Made by a program: the position numbers and the translations under genes. Under the pieces are notes generated by a model. That model was given only the letters and a program-made list of their open reading frames with translations, was not told the origin of the DNA and did not search any database. DNA of 52,585 bases from an uncultured Pseudomonadota bacterium (GTDB taxonomy: Bacteria > Myxococcota_A > UBA796 > SXON01): NCBI GenBank assembly GCA_903959175.1, contig CAJBVW010000082.1:1-52585 (forward strand), read 5' to 3'. Of the stretch, positions 21,186 through 33,115 are shown in pieces; positions within the stretch are counted from its first letter, which is position 1, and the number at the start of each line of letters is the position of its first letter.

Positions 21186-23386
21186 GCGAGGCCGAAGACC
21201 TCCCCGGGGGCCCCGCGCCCGCGGTACCAATGTCCCCGCCGCTCGAGCTCCCCCACGCCCTCGGCGTCTCCCGCCTCGTGCTCTCCCGCGGCAACCTCTT
21301 CGCGGTCACGGCCGCCGCCGGCAACATCGCGCCGGCCGGGGCGCGCGAGCTCGGCGTCTTCTTCCAGGACACCCGCCACCTGTCCTACTACGAGCTCCTC
21401 CTGCCGGGGCACCCGCCCACGCTCCTCTCCTCGGAGACGGAGTCCTCGCTCGCCGCCCAGATCGACCTCACCACCACGGACGAGGAGTTCGGCGGCCTCC
21501 TCGGCGAGCCCATCAACGTGCTCCACATCCGGCGGCGGCAGCTCCTCGACGGCGACTTCATCGACCAGATCGCGCTCACCAACCACATGGGCCGGCTCGT
21601 CGAGATCGAGTTCTCCGTCGCCTTCGCGGCGGACTTCGCCGACGTATTCGAGGTGCGCGGCGCGCGGCGGCCGGGGCGCGGCGCCATCCAGCCGCCCGAG
21701 CTCCGCGGCGACATGGTCCAGCTCGGCTACCACGGCCTCGACGGCGAGTCCTACCGCACCTGCCTCCACTTCCACCCCGCGCCGGACCGGCTCGAGGGGG
21801 GCGCCGCCCACTTTCGCGTGCTCCTGCCGCCGGGCGCGACGCACACGGTCGAGGTGACCGTGCGGTGCTCCCGCGGCGCGCTCAAGGCCCCGCGCCAGCG
21901 TCGCTCCTTCGGGACCCGCCTCTCGCTCGTCCGCGGCGAGGTCTGCCACTTCCTCGCCGACTGCACCCGCATCCGGTGCGACAACGAGCTGGTGCTCCGC
22001 GGCCTGGAGCGCTCCCTCGGCGACGTGTTCGCCCTCCGCATCCAGGAGGGGGGCCGGTGGATGGTCGGGGCGGGCATCCCCTGGTTCGCCGCGCCGTTCG
22101 GGCGGGACGCGCTCATCACCTCCGCGCAGGTGCTCGCCTTCGCGCCCCACCTCGCGGCGGAGACGCTCCGCTTCCTGGCCGCCTACCAGGGGAAGCAGGA
22201 CGACCCCTACCGCGAGGAGGAGCCCGGCAAGATCATGCACGAGCTGCGCCGCGGCGAGATGGTGCGCACGCGGGAGATCCCTCACGCGCCTTACTACGGC
22301 ACCGTGGACGCGACGCCGCTCTTCGTCGTGCTCGCCGGCGAGTACCTCAACTGGACCGGCGATCTCGGGCTCATCGACGAGCTCTGGCCCGCGCTCCTGG
22401 CCGCGGTGGGCCACCTCGACCGCTCCACCGCGGAGGGCGGCGACTTCCTGCGGTACCAACGCCGGAGCCCGCGCGGCCTGGACAACCAGGGGTGGAAGGA
22501 CAGCCGCGACGGCGTCTCGCACCCCGACGGCACCCACGCGGTCGGCCCCATCGCGCTCGTGGAGGTGCAGGGCTACGCGGTGGACGCGTGGCGGCACGCG
22601 GCGCGGATGGCGACGATGCGCGGGCTCGGGGACCTCGCGCGGACCTGGACCGAGCGCGCCGCCGCCTTCGGGGTGGCGGTCGAGCGCGCGTTCTGGAGCG
22701 AGGAGCAGGGCTACTACGCGCTCGCGGTGGACGGGAACGGGGTGCGGGTGCCGACGGTCACCTCCAACCCCGGGCACCTCCTCTGGAGCCGCGCCATCGG
22801 CGAGGACCGCGCGCGACGCGTCGTGAACATGCTGCTCTCGCACGACATGTACTCGGGCTGGGCCATCCGCACGCTCGCGCGGGGGCAGCGCGTCTACAAC
22901 CCGCTGAGCTACCACAACGGCAGCGTCTGGCCGCACGACAACGCGATCGCGGCGATGGGGATGTCCCGCTACGGCATGGGGCGCTCGGCGCAGCGCGTGT
23001 TCGCCGGGCTCCTCGCCGCGTCGGACCACTTCCGGCACCAGCGCCTCCCCGAGCTCTTCTGCGGGATGGACCGCGGAGAGCGGGAGTTCCTCGTCCACTA
23101 TCCGGTGTCGTGCAGCCCCCAGGCCTGGGCCTCCGGCTCGCTCCTGATGATGCTCCAGGCGGTCCTCGGCCTCGAACCGGACGCCTTCGCCGGCCGCCTC
23201 GTCATCCGGAACCCGCGGCTCCCGCCCGGCATCGCGCGGCTCGATCTGCTCGGCATGCGCGTGGGGACCGCGCACGTCGACCTGCGCTTCGTGACCGTGG
23301 ACCACCACACGCACGCCGAGGTGCTCGACATCCGGGACGGTCCGATGCGCGTGGAGATCGAGGTCAGCCCATCGCTCCGGGACTGA
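21182..23386 (+). CDS. Amylo-alpha-1,6-glucosidase / glycogen debranching-type enzyme
   Basis: A 734-aa protein. The N-terminal ~230 residues match the bacterial debranching-enzyme N domain (NLFAVTAAAGNIAPAGARE, LGVFFQDTRHLSYYELLL). The C-terminal (alpha/alpha)6 catalytic domain shows GIPWFAAPFGRDALI, YYGTVDATPLFVVLAGEY, LDNQGWKDSRDGVSHPDG (acidic residues), PTVTSNPGHLLW and YHNGSVWPHDNAIAAMGMSRYG near residues 575-600. These are typical of GH133-like/MGH1-type glucosidases. It should trim alpha-1,6 or short alpha-glucosyl branches; the true substrate could instead be a glucosylated small molecule. It is co-transcribed with the GT4. The stop codon is inside the left arm of a TGATACA palindrome. 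Confidence 0.85.
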   Translation: MSEAEDLPGGPAPAVPMSPPLELPHALGVSRLVLSRGNLFAVTAAAGNIAPAGARELGVFFQDTRHLSYYELLLPGHPPTLLSSETESSLAAQIDLTTTDEEFGGLLGEPINVLHIRRRQLLDGDFIDQIALTNHMGRLVEIEFSVAFAADFADVFEVRGARRPGRGAIQPPELRGDMVQLGYHGLDGESYRTCLHFHPAPDRLEGGAAHFRVLLPPGATHTVEVTVRCSRGALKAPRQRRSFGTRLSLVRGEVCHFLADCTRIRCDNELVLRGLERSLGDVFALRIQEGGRWMVGAGIPWFAAPFGRDALITSAQVLAFAPHLAAETLRFLAAYQGKQDDPYREEEPGKIMHELRRGEMVRTREIPHAPYYGTVDATPLFVVLAGEYLNWTGDLGLIDELWPALLAAVGHLDRSTAEGGDFLRYQRRSPRGLDNQGWKDSRDGVSHPDGTHAVGPIALVEVQGYAVDAWRHAARMATMRGLGDLARTWTERAAAFGVAVERAFWSEEQGYYALAVDGNGVRVPTVTSNPGHLLWSRAIGEDRARRVVNMLLSHDMYSGWAIRTLARGQRVYNPLSYHNGSVWPHDNAIAAMGMSRYGMGRSAQRVFAGLLAASDHFRHQRLPELFCGMDRGEREFLVHYPVSCSPQAWASGSLLMMLQAVLGLEPDAFAGRLVIRNPRLPPGIARLDLLGMRVGTAHVDLRFVTVDHHTHAEVLDIRDGPMRVEIEVSPSLRD

Positions 23387-24107: not shown

Positions 24108-24820
24108 CAGCGGGGCCCCGTGAAGAGGGAGAGGAGGCGCGCGCCGAGGCCCCGATCCGCACGCGCCGCGGGTGCGGGGGTGAGCGGGTGGAAGCCGGGC
24201 GCGCCGGTGTCGAGGAATTGATCGACACGGGCCAGCCCCTCGACGAGGGCAGACTCGAGGTCCGCCGGGGGGACCGGGGCCCCGAAGTGGAGGAAGGCGG
24301 CGGGGGCGGCGTCCTCGCGGAAGGCGTAGGTGAGCGCGACGGGCACGACCGGCGCGTTGGAGATCCGCGCGACGAGGGCGGTGCCCGGCCGCACGTCGAG
24401 GGGGCGGAGCCAGGCGGGGCGCTGCCGGCCCTGAGGGTAGATCCAAAGGGCCCGGCCGGGGCGATCGAGGACCTCCGCCGCGGCGCGGATGCCGGAGCGC
24501 GCCCGGGCGCCGCCGGTGCGGTCCACCGCGAGGGCGCCGACGCGCGCGAGCCACGGGAGGCGGGCGAGGGTCGGGGCGTCGACCAGCACGAAGTCCTCGG
24601 CGCCGAGGGCCGCCCCGGCGAGGGTCACGAGGAGGCCGTCCCACCACGCGACGTGGGTGGCCGCGAGGATGAGCGGGCCGTCCGCGAGCCGCGCGCGCGT
24701 CTCTTCCAGGCCGGAGACCCACACGCCCCCGAGCGAGCGGCGGACGCGCCACCGGCAGTAGCCGCGCCAGAGGCGTACGGCCGTTGGGTTGCGACGAAGG
24801 GGCGGGGCGGGCGGGCTCAT
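24107..24820 (-). CDS. PlsC-family acyltransferase, probably for glycosylated carotenoid
   Basis: A 237-aa protein of the lysophosphatidate acyltransferase family. The H-x4-D catalytic motif is HVAWWD (residues ~53-58, THVAWWDGLL). LWIYPQGRQRP corresponds to the EGxR/FPEGT motif, but in altered form (PQGR), and PVVPVALTYAF is the P-loop-like motif. No obvious transmembrane helix is present, although the region near residue 70 is hydrophobic. By analogy with CrtO of Staphylococcus or CruD, and from its position between a GT2 and carotenoid genes, it likely esterifies a sugar of a carotenoid glycoside. It overlaps the GT2 gene by 4 bp and the lipocalin-like gene by 1 bp, forming one operon. Confidence 0.75.
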   Translation of the reverse strand: MSPPAPPLRRNPTAVRLWRGYCRWRVRRSLGGVWVSGLEETRARLADGPLILAATHVAWWDGLLVTLAGAALGAEDFVLVDAPTLARLPWLARVGALAVDRTGGARARSGIRAAAEVLDRPGRALWIYPQGRQRPAWLRPLDVRPGTALVARISNAPVVPVALTYAFREDAAPAAFLHFGAPVPPADLESALVEGLARVDQFLDTGAPGFHPLTPAPAARADRGLGARLLSLFTGPR

Positions 24821-25914
24821 GCGCCTCCCCGGGCGCCGCGGGCCGCGTAGATGCGCCCCCGCCAGCGGATCGTCCCGCTGCGGCTCCACCGCCACGAGTT
24901 CACCGCGAGCGCGAGGAGGGCGAGGACCCCGACGGGGTGCGCAGGGACGACCCACGCCGCGTGCCGGAAGCGCACGGCGAGCAGGACGCGCTGGGTGAGG
25001 TTGGCGAGCACGCCGACTGCCGCCGGGATCGGCGCGAAGGGGAGGGCGAACCAGGGGAGCAGGAAGCATGTCGCGTAGAGCGCGAGCGTGAGGGCGAGCG
25101 CCCCGGCGCTGGCGCCGATGCCCTCGTACAGGTTCTTGGAGAAGCCCTCCCACGCCTCGCGCCCCGACCGATACATACGACACGTGGCGATACATGCGCC
25201 GTCCACGAAGGCCACGCGCAGGCCCGCACGCTTGGCAGCGCGGCAGAACGCCATGTCGTCGACCACCTCGCTCGCGACCGAGCCGTAGCCCCCGAAGCGC
25301 GCGTAGGCCTCCCGGCGGACGGCCATGATCTGGCCGTTGGCGGCGAGGATCCGCGGGTCGGACAGGGCGCGCACGAGGCGGAGCGGCAGCCAGCTCGTGT
25401 ACGTGAGGTGGAGGAGCGGGACGACCAGCCCCTCGCCGGCGCTGCCCGTCTGCTGGAGGGGGAGGAAGGAGACGACGTCGGCGTCCGCGACGGCGGCGGA
25501 GACGCGCTCGAGGGCGTGGGGCTGGAGGATCGTGTCGGCGTCGACGAACACGAGGAGGTCACCCGAGGCGGCGGAGGCGAGCTGATGGCAGGCGTGGGCC
25601 TTCCCGACGCGGCCCGCCGGGAGGGGCACGCCCTGGAGCACGCGGAGGCGCGGCTCGCGCGCGGCGAGGGCGGCGAGGATCTCGGGCGTCGTGTCCGTGG
25701 AGCGATCGTCGCAGACGATGATCTCGGTGAAAGGCTCGCGGAGCAGGGCCTCGACACACGCGGCGATGCCGCCCTCCTCGTTCCGGGCAGGCACCAGGGC
25801 GCTCGCGCGGAGGGGCGGGGCGCGGGTGGTCGCCGGGCGCCAGGTAGCAAGGTTGATCGCGGTGATCGCGAGGGGAACCAGCGGCGGGGCGACGAGGAGC
25901 AGCCAGGCGGTCAT
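24817..25914 (-). CDS. Family 2 membrane glycosyltransferase, probably carotenoid-specific (CrtQ-like)
   Basis: A 365-aa protein. One N-terminal helix (residues 1-20) is followed by a GT2 domain: ALVPARNEEGGIAACVEALL, CDDRSTDTTPEIL (DD), LLVFVDADTILQP (DAD), a EVVDDMAFC motif and RMYRSGREAWEGFSKNL, which resembles the R-x-Y...W-x-G-x-S-K-N element of carotenoid GT2 enzymes. Two more helices follow near residues 265-290 and 325-340. The ATG at 25914 has an SD (GGAG, 5 nt upstream). A longer in-frame start at 25977 would pass through the operator and is rejected. The gene is first in the operon with the acyltransferase, divergent from crtE across a shared control region. Its coding sequence also contains two CGATACAT boxes. 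Confidence 0.75.
   Translation of the reverse strand: MTAWLLLVAPPLVPLAITAINLATWRPATTRAPPLRASALVPARNEEGGIAACVEALLREPFTEIIVCDDRSTDTTPEILAALAAREPRLRVLQGVPLPAGRVGKAHACHQLASAASGDLLVFVDADTILQPHALERVSAAVADADVVSFLPLQQTGSAGEGLVVPLLHLTYTSWLPLRLVRALSDPRILAANGQIMAVRREAYARFGGYGSVASEVVDDMAFCRAAKRAGLRVAFVDGACIATCRMYRSGREAWEGFSKNLYEGIGASAGALALTLALYATCFLLPWFALPFAPIPAAVGVLANLTQRVLLAVRFRHAAWVVPAHPVGVLALLALAVNSWRWSRSGTIRWRGRIYAARGARGGA
25169..25195. repeat. Two CGATACAT boxes, 19 bp apart, inside the GT2 gene
   Basis: CGATACAT occurs at 25169-25176 and 25188-25195. On the coding strand they give TGT ATC and ATG TAT codons with nearby TGT and CGT, which are unusual codons here. They resemble the TGATACAT elements elsewhere in the carotenoid cluster and may be regulatory sites placed in coding DNA. 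Confidence 0.45.
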
Positions 25915-25925
25915 CGGATCTCCGT

Positions 25926-25980
25926 GCTTGCACACTCTGTGCAGGAGTTGTATAAGGTTTGTATGGAGTTTGCACAACTC
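25926..25980. promoter_or_regulatory. Bidirectional crtE/GT2 promoter with 11-bp direct-repeat operator
   Basis: Plus strand (crtE): -35 TTGCAC (25928-25933), 17-nt spacer, -10 TATAAG (25951-25956). Minus strand (GT2): -35 TTGTGC (25977-25972), 17-nt spacer, -10 TATACA (25954-25949). The two -10 boxes overlap. Units starting at 25937, 25948, 25959 and 25970 are 11-bp repeats (C/TTGTGC, TTGTAT, TTGTAT, TTGCAC). CarH in Thermus binds 11-bp direct repeats. A TGCACA/TGTGCA dyad lies at 25929-25943. Confidence 0.7.
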
Positions 25981-25994
25981 TTCGCGGAGGCGGA

Positions 25995-27047
25995 ATGCGC
26001 TACGATCGGATCGAGAGGGCGGGGCTGAGCGTCGCGGACGAGCAGGAGATCGACCCTCCCGGGCTCTGGGCGGCGGACGGCCTCTCCGAGGTCGAGGAGG
26101 TCATGAGCCAACTCGCCGTGGGTACGCGCCTCGAACGCTCCGGCCACATCGTGCAGGAGCACCTCGCGACGGGCGGGAAGCGGCTCCGCGCCCGGCTCGC
26201 GCTGTCTACCCTCGAGGCCCTCGGCGGCCGGCGGAGCGGCGGGATCGGCTGGGCCGCCGCGTGCGAGCTGGTGCACAACGCCACGCTGATCCACGACGAC
26301 CTCCAGGACGGCGACACCGTGCGCCGCGGGCACCCCACCACCTGGGTGCGTCACGGCGCGGCCCAGGCGGTGAACGCGGGGGACCTCCTCCTCATGTTGC
26401 CGTTCCTCGCGCTCGACTCCGTCGCGGTGGACGGCGCCGTGCGCTGGCAGCTCTCCCGCTCCATCGCCAAGCGGGCCGAGGCCACCGTGCGCGGGCAGTC
26501 GCTCGAGCTCGAGCTCCTCGCCGGCCGCCGCACCGACTGGGACACCTGGATCCGCGCGATCGAGGGCAAGACCGGCGCGCTGCTCGCCCTCCCCGTCGAG
26601 GGCGCGGCGCTCATCACCGGCCTCTCCCCCGAGGCCGCCGCGGCGTTCGGCCAGGAGTTCATTCGGATCGGCGTGCTCTACCAGCTCGCGGACGACGTGG
26701 TCGACCTCTTCGGAGACAAGGGCCGCGACGCCCGCGGCAGCGATCTGCGCGAGGGCAAGGTCAGCGCCCTCGTCGTCGAGCACCTCCGCCTCCACCCGGA
26801 GGACGCCGCGTGGCTCCTCGGCGTGCTCGAGGCCCCCCGCGAGCTCACCCTCGCCGCGGACGTGGCCAACACCATCGAGCGCTTCCGCGACGGCGGCGCC
26901 CTCGCCGGCGTGCTCGCCCGCTACGCCGCCTACGAGTCCCGCATCCTCGACGCGCCGCTCCTGCGCGCCGTCCCCGATCTCCACGCCGTGGCGCGCGCGC
27001 TCTGCGCCCAGATCCGCTCCACCCTCCCCGAGGTTCGCTCCACATGA
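25995..27047 (+). CDS. crtE: Geranylgeranyl (polyprenyl) diphosphate synthase
   Basis: A 350-aa isoprenyl diphosphate synthase. The first Asp-rich motif is DDLQD (residues 101-105, LIHDDLQDG) and the second is DDVVD (~residue 233, YQLADDVVDLFGDKG), both intact. GGKRLRARL (residues 60-68) supplies basic contacts, as expected. It should elongate isopentenyl units to GGPP for phytoene synthesis. The ATG at 25995 has GGAGG 4 nt upstream and is 32 nt after the predicted transcription start; an earlier ATG at 25959 lies inside the -10/operator region and is rejected. Its TGA overlaps the crtI start by 4 bp. Exact chain length cannot be proven, but the operon supports GGPP. Confidence 0.85.
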   Translation: MRYDRIERAGLSVADEQEIDPPGLWAADGLSEVEEVMSQLAVGTRLERSGHIVQEHLATGGKRLRARLALSTLEALGGRRSGGIGWAAACELVHNATLIHDDLQDGDTVRRGHPTTWVRHGAAQAVNAGDLLLMLPFLALDSVAVDGAVRWQLSRSIAKRAEATVRGQSLELELLAGRRTDWDTWIRAIEGKTGALLALPVEGAALITGLSPEAAAAFGQEFIRIGVLYQLADDVVDLFGDKGRDARGSDLREGKVSALVVEHLRLHPEDAAWLLGVLEAPRELTLAADVANTIERFRDGGALAGVLARYAAYESRILDAPLLRAVPDLHAVARALCAQIRSTLPEVRST

Positions 27048-28558
27048 AGCCCACCGTCGTCATCGGCGCCGGGTTCGCCGGCCTCGCCTCCGCGATCCGC
27101 CTCCGCGCCCAGGGTCACAACGTCCTCGTGCTCGAAGCCACCGACCAGGCGGGGGGGCGCGCGAGCGTCTTCAAGCAGGACGGCTTCGCCTTCGACGCCG
27201 GCCCGACCGTCATCACCGCGCCCTACCTCTTCGCCGAGCTCTTCGAGCTCGTGGGCCGCGACCCCGCCGACTACATCACGCTCCTCCCGGTCGACCCCTT
27301 CTACCGGGTCGAGTTTCCGGACGGCTCGCGCTTCGACTACGTCGGCGACGAGGACCGCATCCTCGCCCAGATCCAGGAGATGTCGCCCCGCGACGTCGAC
27401 GGCTACCGCCGCCTCGCCGCCCAGTCCAAGCGCATCTTCGACGTGGGCTACACCCAGCTCGTCGATCAGCCCTTCGACCGCTTCTGGGACATGGCGAAGA
27501 TCGTCCCGCAGATGATGCAGCTCCGCAGCTTCCAGACCGTGTACGGCATGGTCGCGAGCTACCTGAAGGACGAGCGCCTGCGCCAGGTGTTCACGTTCCA
27601 GCCGCTGCTCGTCGGCGGCAGCCCCTTCTCCACGACCTCCATCTACATGCTGATCCACTGGCTCGAGCGCAAGTGGGGCGTGTGGTTCGCGAAGGGCGGC
27701 ACGGGCGCCCTCGTCGACGCGATGGTCAAGCTGCTCGCCGAGCTCGACGTCGAGGTGCGGCTGAACAGCCCGGTCGAGGAGATCGAGGTCGAGAACGGCA
27801 AGGCCACGGCCGTGCGCATCACCGGCGGCCAGCGCATCGAGTGCGACACCGTCGTGTGCAACGCCGACCCCTCCTTTGTCTACACGAAGATGATCAAGCC
27901 GGAGCACCGCCGCACCCACACGGACGCCGCGGTGAAGCGCAAGAGCCCGTCGATGAGCCTGTTCGTCGCCTACTTCGGCGCCGAGCGGACCTACCCGGAC
28001 CTCGCCCACCACACGATCATCCTCGGGCCCCGCTACAAGGGCCTGCTGCACGATATCTTCAACCGGAAGGTGCTCGCGGACGACTTCTCGCTCTACCTGC
28101 ACGCGCCCGCGCGCACCGACCCGTCCATGGCGCCCCCGGGGAAGGAGGCGTTCTACGTCCTCTCCCCGATCCCGAACGACCGCAGCGGCCTCGATTGGGA
28201 GACCATCGAGCCGGAGTACACCGACCGCATCATGAGCTACCTCGACCGGACGCACGTGCCCGGGATCAAGGCGGACCTCTCGACGATAAAGACCGTCGAC
28301 CCCCGCTACTTCCGGAACAACCTCCGCTCGGTGGATGGCGCGGCGTTCGGCATCGAGCCGACGCTCACGCAGTCGGCGTACTTCCGCTACCACAACCGAT
28401 CGGAGGACGTGGACGGCTTGTTCTTCGTCGGCGCCAGCACCCATCCGGGGGCGGGGGTCCCCGGCGTGTTGAACTCGGCGAAGGTGTTGGAGAAGGTGGT
28501 GCCGCGGCCGGCGCATCCCGTGCCGCTGCCGCCGTCCCTCCGCGTCGTCGCGTCGTAG
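27044..28558 (+). CDS. crtI: Phytoene desaturase
   Basis: A 504-aa CrtI-type flavoprotein. The N-terminus has the FAD motif GAGFAGLASAIRLRAQGH (residues ~7-24) with VLVLEATDQAGGRA, then DAGPTVITAPYLF (residues ~53-65), and the CrtI signature near the C-terminus: GLFFVGASTHPGAGVPGVL (residues ~462-480). It should introduce double bonds into phytoene to form neurosporene or lycopene, at the membrane. Number of steps cannot be predicted from sequence. It overlaps crtE by 4 bp and is followed at 8 bp by the B12-domain regulator, so it is part of the crtE-crtI-regulator operon. It is distinct from the CrtD-like paralogue at 31625. Confidence 0.9.
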   Translation: MKPTVVIGAGFAGLASAIRLRAQGHNVLVLEATDQAGGRASVFKQDGFAFDAGPTVITAPYLFAELFELVGRDPADYITLLPVDPFYRVEFPDGSRFDYVGDEDRILAQIQEMSPRDVDGYRRLAAQSKRIFDVGYTQLVDQPFDRFWDMAKIVPQMMQLRSFQTVYGMVASYLKDERLRQVFTFQPLLVGGSPFSTTSIYMLIHWLERKWGVWFAKGGTGALVDAMVKLLAELDVEVRLNSPVEEIEVENGKATAVRITGGQRIECDTVVCNADPSFVYTKMIKPEHRRTHTDAAVKRKSPSMSLFVAYFGAERTYPDLAHHTIILGPRYKGLLHDIFNRKVLADDFSLYLHAPARTDPSMAPPGKEAFYVLSPIPNDRSGLDWETIEPEYTDRIMSYLDRTHVPGIKADLSTIKTVDPRYFRNNLRSVDGAAFGIEPTLTQSAYFRYHNRSEDVDGLFFVGASTHPGAGVPGVLNSAKVLEKVVPRPAHPVPLPPSLRVVAS

Positions 28559-28566
28559 GGGGCGAC

Positions 28567-29520
28567 ATGGGCTACCGCGTGAAGACGGTCTCCGCGATGA
28601 CGGGCATCCCGCGTCCGACGCTGCTGGCGTGGGAGCGGAGGCACGACATCCTCGAGCCGTCCCGGTCGCCCGCCGGGTACCGCGAGTACTCCGACGCGGA
28701 CGTCGCCGCGTTACGACGGCTCAAGGCGCTGGTGGACAGCGGGTACAGCATCGGAGAGTCCGTGGAGCTCGCCCGGAGCGCGTCGCCGCCGCCCTCCCGC
28801 GAGCCCGTGCGCGCCCCGCCGATGGTGGTCGCGGAGCCACTCTTCGCCGACCACGGGCTGGTGGTCCACGCCATCCTCCGCGCGCTCCTCGCCTTCGACC
28901 GCGCCACCGCCGACCGCCTCCTCCCGAAGCTGGGGCAGGTGTCCTTCGCCGTCGCGATCGACCGCGTGTTCGTGCCGGTGATGTACGCGCTCGCGGAGAA
29001 GTGCGACCGCGGCGAGGTCTCCATCGCGCAGGAGCACTTCGTCTCCGGCTTCTGCCGGGAGCACCTCCTCGCGATGTATCACGAGCTCGGCGGAGGCCCC
29101 GAGGGGGGCGTCACCGTCGCCTGCGCCACGCCGTCGGGAGAGCGCCACGAGTTCGGCCTGCTCGTGCTCGCGCTCAAGCTCGCCCTCGCCGGGCACCGCG
29201 TCCTGTGGCTCGGCATCGAGCTCCCCACCGCAGACCTCTGCGCGTTCCTCGCCGCCCAGCGCCCCCGCTTCCTGTGCCTCTCCTTCACGGGGCCCATCGC
29301 CAAGGAAGAGCTGGTCCGCTTCGGGCGGTCGCTCCGCGAGGGCGCCCCGGCCGACACCGAGATCGTCTTCGGCGGGCCCGGCGTGCACGATCACGTCGGC
29401 ACCCTCGCCGAGGGCGTCGTGGTCTTCGGCACGGTCGCCGAGCTCGAGGCGCGCGTGGGCCGCGCGGAGCCCGAGTCGTGGCGCAGCCGCGTCGTGCGGG
29501 AACCGCGTGCGTCCGGCTGA
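28567..29520 (+). CDS. CarH/LitR-type MerR regulator with B12-binding domain and altered photoreceptor motif
   Basis: A 317-aa protein. Residues 1-70 form a MerR helix-turn-helix (KTVSAMTGIPRPTLLAWERR and PAGYREYSDADVAAL). Residues ~90-175 form the four-helix B12-capping domain. Residues ~180-300 form the B12-binding Rossmann domain with E192-x-H194-x-x-G197 (ERHEFG), where His would bind cobalt, and GGPGVHD. In AdoCbl photoreceptors the helical domain has W-x9-E-H; here the E-H is kept (E156-H157) but the Trp is Cys146 (TGC, 29002-29004) and the next residue, His in CarH, is Asp147. Light response could be lost or changed. It likely represses the crtE/GT2 promoter. It is in the crtE-crtI operon and so would autoregulate. 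Confidence 0.85.
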   Translation: MGYRVKTVSAMTGIPRPTLLAWERRHDILEPSRSPAGYREYSDADVAALRRLKALVDSGYSIGESVELARSASPPPSREPVRAPPMVVAEPLFADHGLVVHAILRALLAFDRATADRLLPKLGQVSFAVAIDRVFVPVMYALAEKCDRGEVSIAQEHFVSGFCREHLLAMYHELGGGPEGGVTVACATPSGERHEFGLLVLALKLALAGHRVLWLGIELPTADLCAFLAAQRPRFLCLSFTGPIAKEELVRFGRSLREGAPADTEIVFGGPGVHDHVGTLAEGVVVFGTVAELEARVGRAEPESWRSRVVREPRASG

Positions 29521-29532
29521 CGCGGCCGCCGG

Positions 29533-29554
29533 TGATACATCGGGCGATGTATCA
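29533..29554. repeat. TGATACATCG perfect palindrome between regulator and crtB
   Basis: Arms TGATACATCG (29533-29542) and CGATGTATCA (29545-29554) are perfect over 10 bp with a GG centre. It lies between the convergent stops of the regulator and crtB, and includes the crtB stop codon (29552-29554). It matches the element at 23383 in 13 of 14 bases on its left side. Operator or bidirectional end signal are both possible. Confidence 0.65.
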
Positions 29555-30493
29555 GTCGGTGTCCGTCCCGGGCAGGCCCTCGAGGCCGACGTGCAACGCC
29601 CGCTCGTGCGGAGGCGCCTGCACCCACCCGGCGACCCTCGGGCGGAGCGCCGCGAGCAGGCCCAGGCTGGCCCAGACGCCCTTCTCCCACCACGGCACGA
29701 TGGTGCGGCCGGCCCAGGTGTCCGCGCCGTTGCGCAGCAGGCGACGCCCGATCGCGCGGTAGACACGGCTCGCGACGAGGATGGCGAGGCGGCTGCGCCA
29801 GGGGATGTGGCGCATCGCGTCGTCCGCGCTGGCGTAGTAGCGCTCGGCCAGCGCGAGCAGCTCCCGGACCACGCCGACCAGCTTCGCGCGGTCGACGTCG
29901 CCGGCGGCGAGGCGCTCGGGGTCGATCCCGGCGGCGCGCAGGCGGGTCGCGGGGAGGTAGACGCGGCCGAGGCCGGCGTCCTCCCGCACGTCGCGGCAGA
30001 TGTTGGTGATCTGCATGCCGATGCCGAGGTCGACCGCGTGGGCGAGGGCGCCGCGGTGGGTGACGCCGATGACGCCGCACATCATCAGGCCGACCGTGCC
30101 GGCGACGCGGTAGCAGTAGCGGAGCAGCGCGGCGTCGTCCGGGACGCGCACGGCGCCCTGGTCCGAGCCGATGCCGACGTTCAGCTCGTGGGCGCTCGCG
30201 AGGTCGATGCCGCGGCGGCGGGCCACGGCGTGCAGGGCGGCGACGAGCGGGCGCGGCGGGGCGGTGCCGAGCAGCTCGGCGTCGAGCTGGGCCAGGTCCG
30301 CGGCGCCGACGGCGGGATCCTCGGCTTCATCCACCAGATCGTCCGCGAGGCGGCAGAAGGCGTAGACGACGGCGGCGTCGTCTCGCGCATCTGCTGGCAG
30401 GAACACCGATGCCCAGCGGAAGGAGCGGGCGTGGGTCGCGAGCACGTCGCGGCTGGACGCGACGATGTCCGTCGTCTCGGGTTCGGCCGCCAT
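29552..30493 (-). CDS. crtB: Phytoene synthase
   Basis: A 313-aa squalene/phytoene synthase. The first Asp motif is DDLVD (residues 51-55, AFCRLADDLVDEAED); the second is DVRED (residues 168-172, NICRDVREDAGLGRVYLP), followed by the YLP element. It joins two GGPP into phytoene. The segment near residue 105 (HELNVGIGSDQ) is less conserved than the usual D-G-M-x-x-D motif of the family, which may alter substrate handling, though both magnesium motifs are intact. It is the only carotenoid gene on the minus strand in the right half of the cluster and starts 60 bp from the divergent crtC, so both are likely controlled from that gap. The stop codon lies within a palindrome. Confidence 0.85.
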   Translation of the reverse strand: MAAEPETTDIVASSRDVLATHARSFRWASVFLPADARDDAAVVYAFCRLADDLVDEAEDPAVGAADLAQLDAELLGTAPPRPLVAALHAVARRRGIDLASAHELNVGIGSDQGAVRVPDDAALLRYCYRVAGTVGLMMCGVIGVTHRGALAHAVDLGIGMQITNICRDVREDAGLGRVYLPATRLRAAGIDPERLAAGDVDRAKLVGVVRELLALAERYYASADDAMRHIPWRSRLAILVASRVYRAIGRRLLRNGADTWAGRTIVPWWEKGVWASLGLLAALRPRVAGWVQAPPHERALHVGLEGLPGTDTD

Positions 30494-30552: not shown

Positions 30553-31632
30553 ATGCTGTCGTTGACCCGCGCCGACGTCCCCCCGCGCCGCGCGACGCTG
30601 GACGCGCCCGGCGGCTTCTCCTGGTGGTATGGCGACATCGTGGACGCCGCGGGCAACGGCCTCGTCGTCATCGGGGCCTGGGGCCTGCCGTTCCTCCCCG
30701 GCTACGCGGCGGCGGCGCGGCGGGGCGCCCCCGAACGCGCGGGGAGCCGCCCCTCGCTCAACCTCGCGCTCTACGAGGGAGGGCGGCCGGTGGCCTACCT
30801 CCTCCAGGAGACGCCGGGCGAGTGGGTCAGCGACACGTGTTGGCGCTTCGGCGACAGCGTGCTCACCAGCGAGATCGTGAACGGCGAGCGCCGCCTACAC
30901 GCGACGATCGACTGCCCCGTGGCCGGCACCTCCGCGCGCATGGTCGGCGCGCTCGAGATCGTCGGCCGCCCGCGCGTGTCCGGCCCCGACGAGCCCGCCG
31001 ACGGCCCCCACCGATGGACGCCCCTCGCGACACCCGCGCGTGGAGAGGCGAGCTTCTCCCTGGGAGACGGCTTCCGCTTCGCCGTGGCCGGCCGCGCCTA
31101 CCACGACCGCAACGAGTGCGAGGTCCCCCTCGCCGCCCTCGGCATCGGCGAGTGGTTGTGGGGCCGCGCGCCGCTCGGAGACGACGAGGTCGTGTGGTAC
31201 CTGCTCTGGCCTGAGGGCGGCGGCGCGCCGACCGCGTGGGGCCTGCGCCTCTCCCCGGACGGGCGGACCACGCCCGTCGAGGGCCTGACCGTGCGGCTGG
31301 CCGAGCGCCGCCGCAGCGTCTACGGCCTGGCGTGGTGGGACCATGTATCACTCGATGTATCAGGTGATACATGGCTCACCGTCCGTCACGGCACGCCGGT
31401 GGAGGACGGGCCCTTCTACCTGCGCTTCTTCCCGGTGGTGGAGGGGGCCGGCCTGAGCGGTCGAGGCGTGGCCGAGCTCGTGCGGCCGGATCGCGTGGAC
31501 CTCGACTGGATGCGCCCGTTCGTGCGGATGCGTGTCCGCCCGCCGGGCGCCGGCGCGTCGATGTGGCTGCCGCTGTTCGAGGGCCCCGCGGTGGGGCGGG
31601 CCGGGCGTCTGCTGGGGTTCGGCGGTGGCTGA
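30553..31632 (+). CDS. crtC: Carotenoid 1,2-hydratase (hydroxyneurosporene synthase-like)
   Basis: A 359-aa protein similar to CrtC. The family elements seen are GGFSWWYGDIVDAAGNGLVVI (residues ~16-36), YHDRNECEVPL (~residue 187, the YHD-N pattern) and the DxxLxWxMP-like terminal strand region. CrtC adds water to the terminal double bond of acyclic carotenes, giving 1-hydroxy groups for later glycosylation. It fits the absence of a visible cyclase. The ATG at 30553 follows an AGGAG at 30543-30547. The stop overlaps the crtD start by 8 bp. Inside it, at 31341-31374, three TGTATCA boxes force rare codons GTA, TCA and ACA. Confidence 0.75.
   Translation: MLSLTRADVPPRRATLDAPGGFSWWYGDIVDAAGNGLVVIGAWGLPFLPGYAAAARRGAPERAGSRPSLNLALYEGGRPVAYLLQETPGEWVSDTCWRFGDSVLTSEIVNGERRLHATIDCPVAGTSARMVGALEIVGRPRVSGPDEPADGPHRWTPLATPARGEASFSLGDGFRFAVAGRAYHDRNECEVPLAALGIGEWLWGRAPLGDDEVVWYLLWPEGGGAPTAWGLRLSPDGRTTPVEGLTVRLAERRRSVYGLAWWDHVSLDVSGDTWLTVRHGTPVEDGPFYLRFFPVVEGAGLSGRGVAELVRPDRVDLDWMRPFVRMRVRPPGAGASMWLPLFEGPAVGRAGRLLGFGGG
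31341..31374. repeat. Triple TGTATCA element inside crtC
   Basis: CCATGTATCAC (31341-31351) and GTGATACATGG (31364-31374) form a perfect 11-bp inverted repeat. A further ATGTATCA copy lies between them at 31355-31362, 12 bp after the first. The reading frame here uses GTA TCA, GTA TCA and ACA, all rare in this very GC-rich genome, so the DNA sequence seems to be conserved for a non-coding reason. Confidence 0.65.
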
Positions 31633-33115
31633 GCGCGACGCCATCGTGGTCGGCGCGGGCCTCGGCGGGCTGGCGGCCGCCATCGAGCTCGCGGCGCGCG
31701 GCTGGCGCGTGCGGGTGCTGGAGGGGGCGTCGGTGCCGGGCGGGAAGGCGGGCGTGGTGACGGTGGACGGCGTCGAGGCCGACACCGGACCGAGCGTGCT
31801 CACCCTGCCGGACGTGCTGGACGCCGTGCTGCGCGCGGGTGGATCGTCGCTGGCGGACGAGCTGGAGCTGCGCGCGCCCTCGCCGGCGTTCCGCTACCTC
31901 TGGCCGGACGGCGCCGCCCTCGACGTGGCGCACCGCGCGGACGAGACCCTCGCCAACGTGGGCGCGGCGCTCGGCGGGGCGGCGGAGCGGGAGCTGTCGA
32001 GCTTCCTCGCCTATTCGAAGCGCATCTGGGACGCGGCGGCGCCGAACTTCGTGCTCGGTCCGGCGCCGTCGGTGCTGGGCGTGGCGAAGCTCGGCTTGCG
32101 CGCCTTCGCGCTGGTGGCCGACATCGACAGCCTGCGCGCGATGGAGCGCGCCATCACGACGCGCGTGCGCGATCCGCACCTGCGCGACCTCCTCGGGCGC
32201 TACGCGACCTACAACGGCTCGGACCTGCGCGCGGCCCCCGCGACGCTCAACTGCATCGCCCACCTCGAGCTCGTGGGCGGCGGCTTCGGCGTGACCGGCG
32301 GCATGTACGCGGTGGTGCGCGCCCTCGTGCGCGTGGCGGAGCGGCAGGGCGTGGAGGTCCGGTGCGGCTGCCCGGTGACGCGCATCCTCGTCGAGGGCGG
32401 CCGCGTGACGGGCGTGGAGGCCGGCGGCGAGCGGCTGGACGCCGCGGTCGTCGTGGTGAACGCGGACGTGGGGGCGCTCCTGCCCGGAGCGCCCGGCGGC
32501 CTGCTCGGGCCCGAGGTGCGGAGCGGCCTCGCGATCGAGGCGCCGCGGTCGATGTCGGGGTGGACGGGCATCCTCCGCGCGCGGCGGGGCGCGCCCCGGG
32601 CGGCCCACACCGTGCTCTTCCCCGGGCGGTCCTACGCCGAGGAGTTCGCCGACATCTTCGACCGGGACCAGCCCCCGGTCGAGCCGACCGTGTACCTCTG
32701 CGCGCAGGAGGCGTGCCACGGCCGCGCCGGGTGGGCCGCGGAGGAGCCCGTGTTCGTGATGGTGAACGCGCCGGCCGAGCCCGCGACGGGCGCGCGGGAC
32801 CCCGCCCTCTGGGCGCGCGTGGAGGCGACGGCGATGGCGCGGCTGCGAGGCGCCGGGCTGGCGGACGCGACGGACACCCTCGTCTGGCGCCGCACCCCCG
32901 CCGAGCTGGCGGCGCGCTTCCCGGGCAGCCGCGGTGCGCTCTACGGCGCGGCGAGCAACACGACCTTCTCGGCCTTCCGGCGGCCCGCCAACACGGTTCC
33001 CAAGGTCCCGGGCCTGTTCCTCGCGTCCGGGAGCGCGCATCCGGGCGGGGGCATGCCGCTCTGCCTCCAGTCCGGGCGGCAGGCCGCGGCCGAGGTCGGC
33101 GCCCCGACCGGGTAG
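31625..33115 (+). CDS. crtD: CrtD-like carotenoid 3,4-desaturase (methoxyneurosporene dehydrogenase type)
   Basis: A 496-aa CrtI-family flavoprotein. The FAD motif is VVGAGLGGLAAAIELAARG (residues ~8-26), followed by EADTGPSVLTLPDVL and a C-terminal LFLASGSAHPGGGMPLCL, a GG-x-x-x-x-G form of the phytoene-dehydrogenase signature. It is the second desaturase in the cluster, placed after crtC. By position and sequence it likely makes the 3,4 double bond of 1-hydroxycarotenoids. It starts with GTG at 31625, 8 bp inside the end of crtC. Alternative: another CrtI-type dehydrogenase of phytoene intermediates, since CrtD/CrtI substrate use is not readable from sequence. Confidence 0.8.
   Translation: MAERDAIVVGAGLGGLAAAIELAARGWRVRVLEGASVPGGKAGVVTVDGVEADTGPSVLTLPDVLDAVLRAGGSSLADELELRAPSPAFRYLWPDGAALDVAHRADETLANVGAALGGAAERELSSFLAYSKRIWDAAAPNFVLGPAPSVLGVAKLGLRAFALVADIDSLRAMERAITTRVRDPHLRDLLGRYATYNGSDLRAAPATLNCIAHLELVGGGFGVTGGMYAVVRALVRVAERQGVEVRCGCPVTRILVEGGRVTGVEAGGERLDAAVVVVNADVGALLPGAPGGLLGPEVRSGLAIEAPRSMSGWTGILRARRGAPRAAHTVLFPGRSYAEEFADIFDRDQPPVEPTVYLCAQEACHGRAGWAAEEPVFVMVNAPAEPATGARDPALWARVEATAMARLRGAGLADATDTLVWRRTPAELAARFPGSRGALYGAASNTTFSAFRRPANTVPKVPGLFLASGSAHPGGGMPLCLQSGRQAAAEVGAPTG

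Follow-up and report, generated by a model that had tools for sequence, protein, structure and literature searches.

A CarH-like regulator without the Trp and Gly of the GxxW light-response signature in a carotenoid gene cluster

The dark-state assembly of CarH is stabilized by stacking of Trp131 on the adenosyl group, to which Glu141 of the Thermus protein also hydrogen-bonds (PMC10442372, PMC8221060). The published light-response signature consists of GxxW, EH, GxxH, and GxxxP (PMC11796333), and the published CarH operator is a tandem array of nnnnTnnACAn (PMC9304148). The CarA protein of M. xanthus has no such Trp but retains both the EH pair and the B12 motif, and its repression does not require B12 (PMC9304148, PMC8156234). 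The literature places Trp loss from a CarH protein together with B12-independent repression only in this CarA paralogue, which is found in one myxobacterial suborder and lost its Trp after gene duplication (PMC9304148).

The window analyzed here, which is the whole stretch of 52,585 nucleotides, carries a carotenoid (crt) cluster in which a carH-like regulator gene lies between crtI and crtB. The cluster and its candidate regulatory site are arranged as follows, with the evidence for each assignment in parentheses:

24817..25914, minus strand: glycosyltransferase family 2 gene of the crt cluster (synteny, Pfam)
25938..25981: candidate CarH-type operator in the intergenic region between the glycosyltransferase gene and crtE, four 11-bp repeats, TGTGCAGGAGT TGTATAAGGTT TGTATGGAGTT TGCACAACTCT
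25995..27047, plus strand: crtE, polyprenyl (GGPP) synthase (Pfam PF00348, synteny)
27044..28558, plus strand: crtI, phytoene desaturase-type oxidoreductase, ending 8 bp upstream of the regulator gene (Pfam)
28567..29520, plus strand: carH-like regulator gene, 317 aa (translation, Pfam, NCBIfam, PDB matches, AlphaFold2 model)
29533..29554: a 10-bp sequence and its exact inverted copy, TGATACATCG/CGATGTATCA, where the 3' ends of the regulator gene and crtB converge
29552..30493, minus strand: phytoene synthase gene crtB, in reversed orientation compared with the usual order (PF00494, synteny)
30553..31632, plus strand: crtC-like gene, with 37-45% identity to its positional counterpart in relatives (synteny)
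31625..33115, plus strand: crtD-like gene, a second CrtI-type oxidoreductase (synteny, Pfam)

The usual order in relatives is crtE-crtI-crtB-carH, beside a block of crtC, glycosyltransferase, acyltransferase, and crtD genes, whereas the order in the window is crtE, crtI, the regulator gene, and an inverted crtB, with every gene intact. The crtI of the window is 62-72% identical to that of most relatives, and a Pfam search of the crtC-like gene returned no match. The window lacks the CrtL-type lycopene cyclase gene that relatives usually carry between crtE and crtC, and a CrtL-type gene of 42% identity sits at a contig edge elsewhere in the same genome (G000:C504:127-1344, L262). The inverted repeat between the regulator gene and crtB is possibly a terminator or a repeat element. 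Repeats of this type had eight near-matches in the window versus 0.7 expected, with others of them at 23384, 29072, and 31341-31374, and a similar run precedes a crtB remnant in a congeneric genome (L096).

The repeats at 25938-25981 are the reverse complement of nnnnnTnnACA and match the published CarH operator, which makes this site a predicted operator by similarity of sequence. With a score of 14/16, it was the top four-repeat site of the whole window, while 20 shuffles gave a maximum of 12, and its exact two-repeat core is expected to occur only 0.06 times. The site ends 13 bases ahead of the likely crtE start at 25995, and in most relatives the region around the crt promoter has similar phased repeats as its highest- or second-highest-scoring site. 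It was located by a relaxed phased score; a search for three exact TnnACA repeats returned no match, and a simple scan of the site detected no sigma-70 consensus promoter.

The encoded protein has the CarH architecture, a MerR DNA-binding domain followed by a two-part cobalamin-binding domain, and the parts of it that matter below are these:

Residues 3-69: MerR DNA-binding domain (Pfam)
Residues 101-163: four-helix B12-binding_2 domain (Pfam)
Residues 183-290: Rossmann B12-binding domain (Pfam)
28993..28995, plus strand: GCG, Ala143, replacing the Gly of GxxW (homologue alignment)
29002..29004, plus strand: TGC, Cys146, replacing the adenosyl-stacking Trp, W131 in Thermus (homologue alignment)
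29032..29037, plus strand: Glu156-His157, the EH of Wx9EH, kept
29140..29376, plus strand: cobalamin motif E192xH194xxG197-x41-S239xT241-x27-G269G270 (translation, conservation counts)

Thermus CarH (3whp/5c8d) provided the top PDB sequence matches of the regulator, and CarH structures were likewise the top PDB fold matches of its AlphaFold2 model (mean pLDDT 88), in which C146-D147 stands at the end of a helix spanning residues 127-147. The score against the CarH model NF052513 was 106 bits relative to a curated cut-off of 400, which was passed in 0 of 14 control genomes. As judged by the definition ExHx2G-x41-SxT/V-x22-27-GG (PMC9304148/PMC8156234), the lower-face cobalamin motif is complete, with spacings of 41 and 27, and the EH pair, H194, and GxxxP (G216-P220) of the light-response signature are kept as well. 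The initial annotation had reported the open reading frame and its coordinates, the residues E156-H157 and E192/H194/G197, Asp147, and a TGC codon for Cys146 at 29002-29004, all of which match the translation.

To place Cys146 and its neighbors among their counterparts, homologues from related genomes, a class-wide search, a phylum-wide search, and a named genome scan were aligned. Among 154 distinct sequences, the column of residue 146 holds Trp in 144 and a deletion in nine, and Cys occurs in the regulator alone, which is the only substitution at this position, a pattern that exceeds chance. The alignment is free of gaps from Cys146 to Glu156-His157 against both Thermus CarH and all crt-linked relatives, which rules out a Trp at a shifted position and bears out the earlier claim that Cys has replaced it. 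An intact Wx9EH is consequently absent, with Cys146 standing for the Trp and the EH present. A second departure, which had been overlooked, is Ala143, since the Gly of GxxW is found in 143 of the 145 deletion-free rows; thus, the GxxW signature is broken by both Ala143 and Cys146, and these two are the only deviations of the regulator in the 16 columns that are ≥97% conserved among the Trp-bearing rows. Eight of the nine deletions belong to the myxobacterial CarA clade. The ninth is a lone CarH-like variant (L213, G258:C567) in which a longer deletion takes out the Trp and the EH pair is also broken, possibly a separate route to a B12-insensitive regulator.

The adjacent Asp147 had been taken for the loss of a His that serves as the light-state cobalt ligand. 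This argument fails because position 147 is variable (E 39, H 33, A 32, S 12, Q 8, and others in the 144 Trp-bearing rows), so His is not ancestral there, and because Arg, Gln, or Tyr replaces His132 in experimentally confirmed photoreceptors (PMC11796333). Asp147 as a lost ligand was therefore ruled out. The accompanying description of the rest of the helix as normal holds downstream, for DRGEVSIAQEH, but not upstream of Cys146, where the helix is altered, including at Ala143. The residues at positions 136, 140, 143, 145, 146, and 147 are absent from every other crt-linked homologue, and the helix of residues 127-147 holds six of the 22 residues unique to the regulator (hypergeometric p 0.003, or 0.011 without Cys146), a clustering of only moderate significance in a helix that was singled out for its missing Trp. 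A permutation test with a scan window along the regulator returned p 0.0095; among 40 sequences this was the lowest value, though suggestive at most once 40 tests are allowed for. In this helix the regulator is the most divergent of 15 sequences, at a distance of 2.56 versus 1.04-1.61. Judging from their spacings of 4, 3, and 4, residues 136, 140, 143, and 147 would share one face of the helix, and that face would carry the Gly and the position of the light-state ligand of Thermus CarH.

In a tree computed with the columns around 143-150 omitted, the regulator nests in a Trp-bearing, crt-linked clade of 15 rows (SH-aLRT 99), and the CarA rows form a single branch (support 100) apart from that clade. 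The tree requires two losses of the Trp, one on the CarA branch and one in the regulator, and since the regulator lies inside a Trp-bearing clade away from CarA, we conclude that its Trp was lost independently. Membership of the CarA clade was ruled out by the tree and by the deletion of CarA, which is absent in the regulator. Judging from named relatives of the same clade, the source organism would be placed near Myxococcota. The regulator is the only crt-linked copy of the CarH family found in the window genome; carH duplication is common in the order, with two crt-type carH genes each in G034, G043, G048, G050, G051, G012, G011, G038, G023, and G024, so a second copy could have gone unseen in the window genome, which is incomplete. 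A second MerR-B12 gene of the same genome (L032, G000:C568:1648-2436) has Trp and EH intact and falls in a different clade, one with members in many related genomes. It adjoins a copper-type P-type ATPase gene, a neighbor that other members of its clade do not share. It was rejected as an intact partner of the regulator, being 29% identical to it, from the other clade, and without adjacent crt genes.

Taken on the sequence evidence, there is in our estimate an about even chance that the regulator, a member of the CarH lineage that would have lost its light-sensing cap, acts as a CarA-like repressor no longer coupled to photolysis of AdoCbl. We consider this the best reading because stacking of the Trp stabilizes the dark-state assembly, the Gly and Trp of GxxW belong to the light-response signature, and CarA, which is without the Trp, represses B12-free. 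The regulator is probably a natural light-blind version of CarH that arose separately from CarA. Its MerR domain would still recognize the 11-bp operator repeats that lie shortly before crtE. The cobalamin pocket is still encoded, and binding of the regulator to DNA would be independent of adenosylcobalamin and its photolysis. With the Trp gone, the Gly changed, and the helix altered, photolysis of AdoCbl would no longer be expected to control assembly, and de-repression, if any, would come through another signal. For the regulator we thus infer DNA binding, B12-independence, and the absence of a direct light response, from one sequence in one fragmented assembly (611 contigs). The initial annotation had suggested a B12-dependent but light-insensitive repressor; light-insensitivity with respect to AdoCbl is to be expected from the role of Trp131, and B12-dependence is the weaker half of that suggestion in view of CarA, the nearest natural precedent. 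The window genome encodes an adenosyltransferase and methylmalonyl-CoA mutase, so AdoCbl should be available and B12-independence is therefore not forced by a missing cofactor; a lack of AdoCbl as the cause was rejected on the same grounds. It weighs against a CarA-like repressor that no CarS-like or other de-repressor was recognized near the crt cluster. CarF (PF10520), which belongs with CarS, CarQR, and CarDG to the circuit that accompanies CarA, was likewise not found in the window genome, a search for which the control was mixed, as it was found in one of two CarA-bearing genomes.

The main rival to a CarA-like repressor, because the carotenoid pathway is dispensable in the genus, is a relaxed, non-repressing relic, in which the Trp loss would have locked the protein in an apo- or light-like state, made crt expression constitutive, and left the regulator heading for loss. 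The adenosyl-Trp contact does stabilize the dark assembly of CarH (PMC10442372, PMC8221060), and the homologue search of related genomes yielded no counterpart of the regulator in either congener. In one of them (G001), only remnants of the acyltransferase gene, crtB, and crtD are left at the crt site, with no carH (L096, G001:C100 9295-10379), and its flanks are intact, the neighbors being 79% and 81% identical. Within the genus, that congener's carotenoid cluster, together with carH, has gone in two or more steps of deletion, and the loss of most of the pathway in a sister species is just as compatible with relaxed selection on light control. Its crtB remnant has the orientation seen in the window, and the inversion of crtB is therefore probably older than the split between the two. 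Yet the open reading frame of the regulator is intact, its other conserved residues are kept, and its divergence does not exceed that of its sisters, the whole-protein mean distance ranking fourth of nine crt-linked CarH proteins, which is not unusually fast. Its DNA-binding domain and EH helix are well conserved (divergence ranks 12 and 14 of 15), and a nonfunctional gene should have accumulated changes in such places too. The crt enzymes of the window are intact and among the least divergent. General decay of the gene is unsupported, with an ordinary overall divergence and only two of the 16 conserved columns changed, and we regard the relic as an unlikely, though not far-fetched, explanation.

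A changed cobalamin chemistry is less probable again. Here the pocket would still bind a cobalamin, Cys146, or Asp147 or Tyr140, would contact its upper face, and the regulator would sense another form of cobalamin or the redox state rather than light. The lower-face motif is complete, cofactor enzymes are encoded in the genome, the unique residues 136, 140, 143, 146, and 147 lie in the same helix, and in CarH the residue at the Trp position enters the vacated adenosyl space (PMC8221060); however, Cys is common to no relative, and one isolated Cys could easily have arisen as a neutral change. The Cys might form an adduct with cobalt. We think it very doubtful that the crt genes are controlled by a cobalamin-thiolate or other non-adenosyl state based on Cys146, which would be a redox or cobalamin-form sensor evolved in place.

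It is also quite improbable, slightly more so than an altered chemistry, that the regulator is still an AdoCbl photoreceptor in which the helix has changed elsewhere so as to make up for the lost Trp. The EH pair, the lower His, and the GxxxP residues are kept, and position 147 varies among proven photoreceptors (PMC11796333), so the pocket tolerates some change, but all other deletion-free homologues, from several phyla, keep the Trp, and both conserved letters of GxxW are gone. Least credible of all is a mistake in assembly or base calling at 29002-29004. In its favor, TGC is one base from TGG and the assembly is fragmented, but the changes upstream of Cys146 mean that one miscalled base would not explain the whole change (Gly143Ala and four more unique residues of the same helix would all need to be errors), the reading frame and third-position G+C are undisturbed, and paired compensating frameshifts are unlikely because the altered stretch has no TGG in any frame and G or C at every third codon position.

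The Trp loss described here is separate from that of CarA and occurred by substitution in a protein that retains its DNA-binding and lower cobalamin parts. The regulator offers a natural way to ask which residues turn CarH into a photoreceptor and whether loss of the Trp suffices for a CarA-like repressor. Compared with TtCarH of Thermus thermophilus, a class I LitR/CarH protein and AdoCbl photoreceptor-repressor, the regulator has the same MerR, four-helix, and Rossmann architecture, and the two have in common the EH pair, the ExHxxG-SxT-GG motif, linkage to crt genes, and 11-bp repeats as the known or, for the regulator, candidate operator, but the regulator is without the Trp and Gly of the GxxW/Wx9EH signature. 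Like class II LitR (Pseudomonas PplR/PmlR, which are effectors of short LOV photoreceptors), it is a member of the CarH family that would not sense light through B12, whereas class II LitR keeps only the four-helix domain (PMC9758184) and the regulator has both cobalamin domains and the lower-face motif. With CarA of the Myxococcaceae and Archangiaceae, it shares the missing Trp, the retained EH and cobalamin motif, and a place in a crt locus. CarA differs in having a 5-residue deletion (8/8 CarA rows), whereas the regulator has a substitution that keeps the length of the helix without a gap, and CarA adjoins an intact carH, whereas the regulator is the sole crt-linked copy found in its genome.
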